Shown one piece after another: positions 52,530 through 54,429 of a stretch of DNA of 64,000 nucleotides (positions within the stretch are counted from its first letter, which is position 1; every line of letters starts with the position of its first letter). Origin of the DNA: Deferribacter desulfuricans SSM1 (GTDB lineage Bacteria; Chrysiogenota; Deferribacteres; Deferribacterales; Deferribacteraceae). Both the position numbers and the translations under genes were made by a program. The notes beneath the pieces are model-generated. The model saw only the letters and a program-made list of their open reading frames with translations, was not told the origin of the DNA and did not search any database. The stretch is taken from the NCBI RefSeq assembly GCF_000010985.1, contig NC_013939.1, positions 1,579,501 to 1,643,500 of the forward strand, given 5' to 3'.

Positions 52530-52660
52530 AATCAAGACTATTACCCAATAAAATGTGATATTTTGAGATTGCTTCGCCGACTCTCGCAATGTCGGCTTTT
52601 TTGGGTCATTGCGAGGCAACAAAAGTTGCCGAAGCAATCTCAAATTAAACTATTACTCAA
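52530..52660. repeat. Dispersed palindromic repeat, copy 7
   Basis: Perfect 15-base outer arms TTTGAGATTGCTTCG / CGAAGCAATCTCAAA (52562-52576 and 52630-52644) enclose CTCGCAATG / CATTGCGAG (52582-52590 and 52607-52615). Located between convergent genes. Confidence 0.85.
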
Positions 52661-52671
52661 CTTTTTAATTC

Positions 52672-53025
52672 TTATGCATTAGAATTTGCAAAATTAACAA
52701 TTTTCACAAATATTTCATCAACATCTTCTTCACCCCAAGAAACAGGTTTACCATTTATCGATACATAAGGAAGGGGTAACCTATTTTCAACAATCGTATT
52801 AACATCATCGATATAATCAAGAACTTCTGGTGTTGAAATATCTACATATTTAAAGTCAACACCATCCAAACCAAACTCTTTGGTCAATTTCGCATCAAGT
52901 TTTTTCGCAATTTCAAAGTATGGATCTTCACTCTCCCCGCAACCTGCAGGAAAATAAGAAGGGCTTCACCCAGAAACAAAATCCATACTGGAGCCAAATA
53001 ATCTTATTTTCATTTTCTCACTCAT
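52672..53025 (-). CDS. Predicted selenoprotein with thioredoxin-like fold (UGA-encoded Sec at residue 20)
   Basis: The gene has 118 codons from the ATG at 53023-53025 to TAA, read through one in-frame TGA (52966-52968). GTGAGGT lies eight bases before the ATG. The N-terminal half continues the same domain as the C-terminal half: strand KIRLFG, the motif SGUSPSYFPAGC with U20 and Cys29, helix DPYFEIAKKL, strand FKYVDIS, a second helix and LPLPYVSING, where a cis-Pro of a thioredoxin fold would lie. This layout recalls the YuzD-like redox family, in which a CxxC takes the place of the U. A SECIS-like hairpin follows the TGA. It starts three bases after the purF stop and is probably co-transcribed. 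A recent nonsense mutation is the alternative. Confidence 0.75.
52926..52962 (-). promoter_or_regulatory. Candidate bacterial SECIS element
   Basis: On the minus strand a 9-bp stem UUUUCCUGC / GCGGGGAGA (52946-52954 and 52932-52940, with G-U pairs) closes an AGGUU loop (52941-52945). A lower CUUC/GAAG stem flanks it. The loop begins 20 bases after the UGA. E. coli fdhF has an AGGUCU loop at a similar distance; the GGU in the loop is what SelB recognises. Confidence 0.7.
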
Positions 53026-53028
53026 AAT

Positions 53029-54429
53029 TTATACCTCACTTTTTGGATTAATACCTAAACCATCTTTATGCAATGTTGGATATTTACCGCTGAAACACGC
53101 ATCACAAAAACTAAAAGGTTTTACACACTCATGCATCCCTTCCAAGCTTAAATATGCAAGAGAATCAGCAGTAATATATTTTCTTATCTCCTCTATCGTA
53201 TGATTAGATGCTATCAACTCACTTCTAGTGGGTGTATCAATACCATAAAAACATGGGTAACAGGTCGGTGGAGAAGAAATTCGCATATGAACCTCTTTTG
53301 CTCCAGCTTCTTTTAGCATTTTAACAATTTTCCTACTAGTTGTACCTCTTACAATAGAATCGTCAACCACAACAACCCTTTTCCCTTCTATAACACTTCT
53401 CACAGCATTGAGCTTCAGTTTAACACCAAAATGTCTAATAGATTGAGCAGGTTCAATAAATGTTCTACCCACATAATGGTTTCTAATTAACCCCATAGCA
53501 TAAGAAATTTTACTATATTCAGAATAACCGAGTGTAGCAACAACTCCAGAATCAGGCACAGGAATTACAACATCAGCATCAACTGGACTCTCTTCTGCAA
53601 GTTTCATCCCAAAACTTTTTCTTACCTCATATACACTTTTTCCAAAAATTCGACTATCAGGTCTGGCAAAATATATAAACTCAAATATACATGGAGTTGG
53701 ATTTACATTTTCAAAAGGCCTTATACTTTGTAAACCATCATCCTTTATAATGACCATTTCTCCAGGATCTATCTCTCTAATAAACTCTGCATCTATTAAA
53801 TCCAACGCGCACGTTTCGCTAACTAAAACATGACCAGACCTAATTTTACCCAAAATAAGCGGTCTAAAACCGTTTGGGTCTCTTAAGCCAATAAGCATAT
53901 CTTTTGTCATAAAAATAAGGCTAAAAGCACCTTTCAACTTACTAACACTACTAATTATTGCATCTATCAGATTATCTTTACCAGATTTTGCCATCAAATG
54001 AATCACTATTTCACTATCTGAAGTTGAAGTAAAAATAGATCCATCTCTTACAAGATCATCCCTCAACTTTTCGGCGTTTACTATATTTCCGTTATGAACT
54101 AAAGCAACCTGTCCCAAATTTATATCTGCAACAATCGGTTGGGTATTTTTCAACAAAGATTCTCCAGAAGTTGAGTACCTGTTATGTCCAATAGCTATAT
54201 CACCAGGTAACCTTTCTAAAGTATGTTTTTTAAAAATATCGGCCACCAAACCAAGCCCTTTTTCAACCCTTATTATATGTCTATCAGAACAGGCTATACC
54301 AGCACCTTCCTGCCCCCTATGCTGAAGAGCATAGAGTGATAGATACACCAAATTGGCTGCATCTTTGTCGCCAAATACACCAGCTATACCGCATTCTTCG
54401 TGAAATTTATCAAATATCATTTCATCCAT
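53029..54429 (-). CDS. purF: Amidophosphoribosyltransferase
   Basis: First step of purine synthesis: transfers glutamine ammonia to PRPP. The N-terminal nucleophile Cys13 ([10 protein letters not shown]) follows a short propeptide that is presumably cleaved. GHNRYSTSG, the PRPP motif [14 protein letters not shown] and cysteines in [15 protein letters not shown] and FCDAC are present, the pattern of the [4Fe-4S]-containing Bacillus-type enzyme. Its start overlaps purL by 13 bases. It is the last recognisable purine gene of the operon purSQLF. Confidence 0.95.

Follow-up and report, generated by a model that had tools for sequence, protein, structure and literature searches.

The window (64,000 nucleotides of Deferribacter desulfuricans SSM1, the whole stretch of DNA analyzed here; G+C, 30.6%; source genome, 2.54 Mb in two contigs) contains a hairpin that is best explained as a bacterial SECIS element, which would direct the insertion of Sec at an in-frame UGA codon and thereby allow synthesis of a 117-residue, probably redox-active selenoprotein. 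We assign a probability of about 94% to this explanation as a whole. It is supported by the conservation of the UGA and of the hairpin, by co-variation at synonymous sites, by the presence of the Sec machinery, and by purifying selection past the UGA. The relevant features are the following:

52672..53025, minus strand: candidate Sec-decoding gene, 117 codons plus TAA, with Sec as residue 20; frame open save for one UGA
52966..52968, minus strand: in-frame UGA, codon 20, predicted from the sequence to be read as selenocysteine; UGA at this place in 22/22 orthologous loci
52926..52961, minus strand: predicted bacterial SECIS hairpin (RNAfold, −16.1 kcal/mol), with seven apical pairs conserved across 18 different sequences, in which they co-vary
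52954-52945 / 52941-52932, minus strand: upper 10-bp stem (RNAfold)
52961-52958 / 52929-52926, minus strand: lower 4-bp helix (RNAfold), not conserved across orthologues
52942..52944, minus strand: exposed GGU triloop, the putative SelB contact; GG and the closing A-U pair in 18/18
53029..54429, minus strand: purF, directly upstream of the selenoprotein gene (list of open reading frames; 3-nt gap)

In its minus-strand frame, the selenoprotein gene starts with ATG at 53025 and ends with TAA at 52674-52672. Within the coding RNA, the hairpin would present its GGU loop, 20–21 nt past the Sec UGA, to SelB, which, when bound there, would direct Sec-tRNA(Sec) to the UGA; translation would then carry on past this codon to yield the selenoprotein of 117 residues. 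Both the binding of SelB and the actual insertion of Sec at the UGA are what we infer from the sequence. A SECIS element at this place would settle that the adjoining gene encodes a real selenoprotein.

RNAfold, applied to the 48-nt segment that begins with the UGA, returned the structure .......((((...((((((((((...))))))))))..))))..... at −16.1 kcal/mol; the energy of the constrained hairpin was −11.4 kcal/mol. The spacing from the UGA is 20 nt when measured to AGGUU and 21 nt when measured to GGU. The same hairpin dominated when segments of 48–300 nt surrounding the UGA were folded, with probabilities of 0.55–1.0 for the apical pairs, and RNAfold revealed no better fold of the window sequence in which the GGU would be hidden. 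The hairpin is thus present where the original prediction had placed it, and the strand, left unstated there, is the minus strand. The 9-bp stem closing AGGUU that had been described is equivalent to the 10-bp stem closing GGU obtained with RNAfold, and the predicted distance of 20 bases between UGA and loop was confirmed, as measured to AGGUU. The lower 4-bp helix was rejected as part of the conserved element because it is absent from most orthologues. As proof, the fold energy of the single sequence is weak (z −1.72; 8 of 200 shuffles folded equally well), and a geometry scan and a synonymous-recoding null were used instead. With SECIS geometry imposed, a hairpin as good followed 6 of the 2396 TGA trinucleotides that occur in any frame on the two strands of the window.

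The model of the bacterial SECIS (bSECIS) places the apical loop 16–37 nt from the UGA, on an upper stem of 4–16 bp, with an MFE of ≤ −7.5 kcal/mol and the loop pattern N1-G-[G/U]-N-N2, in which N1 and N2 are paired (PMC13188914). The window hairpin lies within all four constraints of this model (PMC13188914) and resembles the consensus in its intracoding position 3′ of the UGA, its loop spacing of 20–21 nt, the AGGUU loop, the stem, and the energy. In the SECIS of fdhF, a bulged U17 is found together with G23 and U24 in the loop, and SelB of E. coli needs the bulged U17 (PMC8659212). The likeness to fdhF originally proposed holds for the spacing and the GGU loop but not in full detail: the window hairpin contains no counterpart of the bulged U17, and its GGU triloop is closed by an A-U pair. 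It is, therefore, a bSECIS and not a copy of the E. coli fdhF element.

Relatives of the gene were found in 19 of the 50 genomes of the phylum search, distributed over five families of one order, and also on two public contigs from another collection (a Deferribacteraceae MAG and a Calditerrivibrio MAG), the sequences of which are identical to those of two genome loci. UGA occupies the identical codon in each of the 22 orthologous loci (19 genomes plus the two public contigs). No orthologue with Cys was detected among the 384 genomes searched, nor were relatives outside the order found in these 384 genomes, either with the family profile or with PF07315; plasmid records yielded no relative. 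One genome (G025) carries two pairs of purF and the selenoprotein gene (L020 and L031), located on separate contigs and slightly divergent in sequence.

The source genome encodes SelA, SelB, SelD, and tRNA-Sec, the latter identified by both ARAGORN and Rfam. Its selD is a second Sec gene, with an in-frame UGA of its own (L040:1531-1533, plus strand), 17 nt downstream of which a GGA loop starts on a strong stem (z −4.1). Formate dehydrogenase, the most widespread bacterial selenoprotein, was rejected as a second Sec gene because all Fdh-alpha-like genes of the genome are free of internal stops, and it, therefore, does not explain the retention of Sec in this organism. Across the phylum, SelB matches were found in 18 of the 19 genomes carrying the selenoprotein gene versus 5 of the 31 not carrying it (Fisher p 3e-8). 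The sole carrier without SelB is a draft genome (G008), in which selA is present near a contig end; three of the five non-carriers with a SelB match have no selA. Because genomes G004, G005, and G037 lack selA, the weak SelB-wing matches in them probably do not represent SelB. In the draft genome G013 (87% complete), SelB is only partial and selA was not found. One genus in a carrier family (G020-G022) is devoid of the selenoprotein gene, selA, and selB altogether, and this joint absence suggests that the gene helps to maintain the use of Sec in the order.

If the UGA were a genuine stop or had arisen by nonsense mutation, the remainder of the frame would be a pseudogene or a re-initiated frame of 97 codons, and the hairpin would be incidental. 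UGA does serve as an ordinary stop in 12 of the 44 long frames of the window, and the single-sequence fold energy is unexceptional; yet, the same UGA is found in 22 of 22 loci from five families, the coding sequence 3′ of it is under strong purifying selection (dS ∼10-fold higher than dN), and the presence of the gene follows that of the Sec machinery. Moreover, strand 1 of the predicted fold and an invariant motif, FG.S....SG, precede the UGA, which argues that the halves on either side of it form one protein. A stop at this position is, therefore, extremely unlikely, and the preference for Sec decoding over a nonsense mutation expressed in the original prediction is supported by the 22 shared UGA codons, the co-varying hairpin, the Sec machinery, and the selection past the UGA. 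Hardly more credible is that the UGA is read as some other amino acid, such as Trp or Cys through suppression or reassignment, with no Sec involved. Such a reading draws on the identity of the inserted residue being one that we infer; against it stand that other genes of the window use UGA as a normal stop, that the set of sel genes is complete and SelD itself contains a UGA, that a hairpin of the bSECIS type follows at the correct spacing, and that the genus G020-G022 misses the gene along with selA and selB.

The stem could also have been kept only through conservation of the protein, codons of the PAGCG type pairing by accident. The sequence around the stem is in fact strongly conserved, and when the proteins were held fixed and synonymous codons redrawn according to local usage (a null that ignores relatedness), recoding alone led to pairing of 80.8 of 126 stem cells on average (sd 3.8; maximum of 95 in 5000). 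In the alignment of 18 distinct sequences, which is gap-free over the UGA and the hairpin, 118 of the 126 cells (seven apical pairs in 18 sequences) are paired, ∼10 sd over the null, a distance inflated by the relatedness of the sequences. This excess stems from third codon positions: the choice between TTT and TTC for Phe tracks the pairing base, located just 3′ of GCG; Cys is encoded by TGC where the opposite arm reads GCA and by TGT where it reads ACA; and the fourfold-degenerate base 5′ of GG is A in 18/18. Accidental pairing imposed by the protein is, thus, very unlikely, if a shade less so than the two preceding readings. When applied to the window sequence alone, the synonymous-recoding test was marginal (p about 0.04).

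Maintenance of the bSECIS at the RNA level is also apparent from individual columns, several of the co-varying sites being third codon positions. Columns 18/34 are occupied by CG in eight, UA in seven, UG in two, and GU in one of the sequences, columns 22/30 by GC in eight, AU in four, and other combinations in six. When the 3′ arm was slid by 1–3 columns, pairing dropped from 94% to 39–56%. Double changes at two pairs amounted to 12 cells, a value as high as which was reached in 0 of 500 shuffles; mapped on the PurF tree, they reduce to just two independent double switches for each pair, all toward pairing, so that a sign test is unable to reach significance. The position of the hairpin and its A-GG-Y-U core are invariant across the orthologues: the loop-closing A-U pair, the adjacent C-G pair, and the GG of the loop occur in 18/18, and the third loop base is either U or C. 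Some stems are weaker; in L028, two mismatches produce an internal loop in the stem, and competing longer-range folds are predicted for L018 and L026 and, in part, for L011, L017, and L020. Among the orthologues found, none contained the UGA without the hairpin, and compensatory changes at synonymous sites keep the stem, with GG exposed throughout.

The SECIS is ordinary; the protein, judged from its sequence, looks like a member of an uncatalogued selenoprotein family, the term referring to absence from two sources, NCBIfam and the 2026 inventory. The selenoprotein models of NCBIfam (release 20.0) gave no match (best E 0.13, for one member), and neither DUF1462 nor the window family is among the 119 prokaryotic selenoprotein families of the 2026 inventory (PMC13188914). 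Standard annotation would, therefore, end the gene at the UGA or overlook it. A literature search retrieved no paper linking a selenoprotein with YuzD and nothing relevant for purF or Deferribacter.

The window protein matched PF07315 (DUF1462) with an E of 7.5e-5 and 23.4 bits, which is under the Pfam gathering cut-off (25 bits). Of 17 family members, 15 matched the same model, mostly below the cut-off, which was exceeded by one relative only (25.7 bits; 384 genomes searched). The best match of the family profile was the DUF1462 structure 1xg8 (E 7.9e-4). The AlphaFold2 model of the protein (mean pLDDT of 71.5, that is, medium confidence, and under 50 around Sec) has its secondary-structure elements arranged as beta-alpha-beta-alpha-beta-beta-alpha, which is the order of a thioredoxin fold. 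Its top structural match in both Foldseek and VIA-align was again 1xg8 (VIA-align Z 10.2). DUF1462 had earlier been assigned to the thioredoxin-like folds (PMC3091736). By these profile and model comparisons, the predicted selenoprotein is a distant relative of DUF1462/YuzD and not a member. It shares the thioredoxin-like fold and a similar length with YuzD (PF07315; 1xg8, from S. aureus) but differs from it by Sec and a downstream Cys (SGU-x8-C) and by its linkage to purF.

DUF1462 proteins of Bacilli contain a CxxC motif in the loop that leads from strand 1 to helix 1, which is where the redox cysteines of thioredoxin-fold oxidoreductases reside. In the model, Sec20 is located in the loop joining these two elements (pLDDT <50 there). 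Nine residues past Sec, a Cys (Cys29) is shared by all 16 orthologues aligned from the main family (motif SGU-x8-C), and Pro86, N-terminal to strand 3, would correspond in position to the thioredoxin cis-proline. Most likely, the product acts as a thiol/selenol redox protein, a role deduced from the fold and the position of the residues, as the Sec loop of the model is unreliable. Other, known small selenoproteins of the thioredoxin fold, among them UXX-star glutaredoxin-like proteins, VPGUxxT, HUIPC, and SaoT, likewise carry Sec close to where helix 1 begins; neither the motif of the window family nor its Ux8C spacing, in contrast, is listed in the 2026 inventory (PMC13188914).

In all 22 loci, purF is located directly upstream of the selenoprotein gene, with gaps of 2–21 nt between stop and start codon. 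The purF gene of the window is probably in one operon with purL, purQ, and purS. The encoded PurF has a short leader preceding CGIAG; this leader and the C-terminal letters of the protein we take to be signs of the Fe-S type of the enzyme, the leader of which is cleaved, as in the enzyme from B. subtilis. Gene order suggests that the selenoprotein serves PurF or is co-regulated with it; that it protects or repairs the Fe-S cluster or the catalytic cysteine of PurF is speculation. As it is always encoded beside purF, the protein could be a dedicated redox partner of PurF in purine synthesis. That the family is at once uncatalogued, confined to one order in the genomes searched, always Sec-containing, and always adjacent to purF, and may be such a partner of Fe-S PurF, is put forward only tentatively, the odds being rather against it. 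As an invariant neighbor, purF provides a direct, testable lead to selenium-dependent redox control of purine synthesis.

A distant paralogue with ∼24% identity is encoded in genome G023 (L032:1444-1797, minus strand). Its single in-frame UGA occupies the corresponding position, after CTSG, and the gene is not located beside purF. A GUG-loop hairpin lies 21 nt past this UGA, with an energy no better than that of shuffled sequences. In the window, a near-perfect palindrome of 77 bases (52566-52642; GAGATTGCTTCG...CGAAGCAATCTC) is situated just 3′ of the selenoprotein gene. At least 39 further copies of it, with 79–100% identity, are present in the genome, which characterizes it as a dispersed repeat that may double as a terminator.
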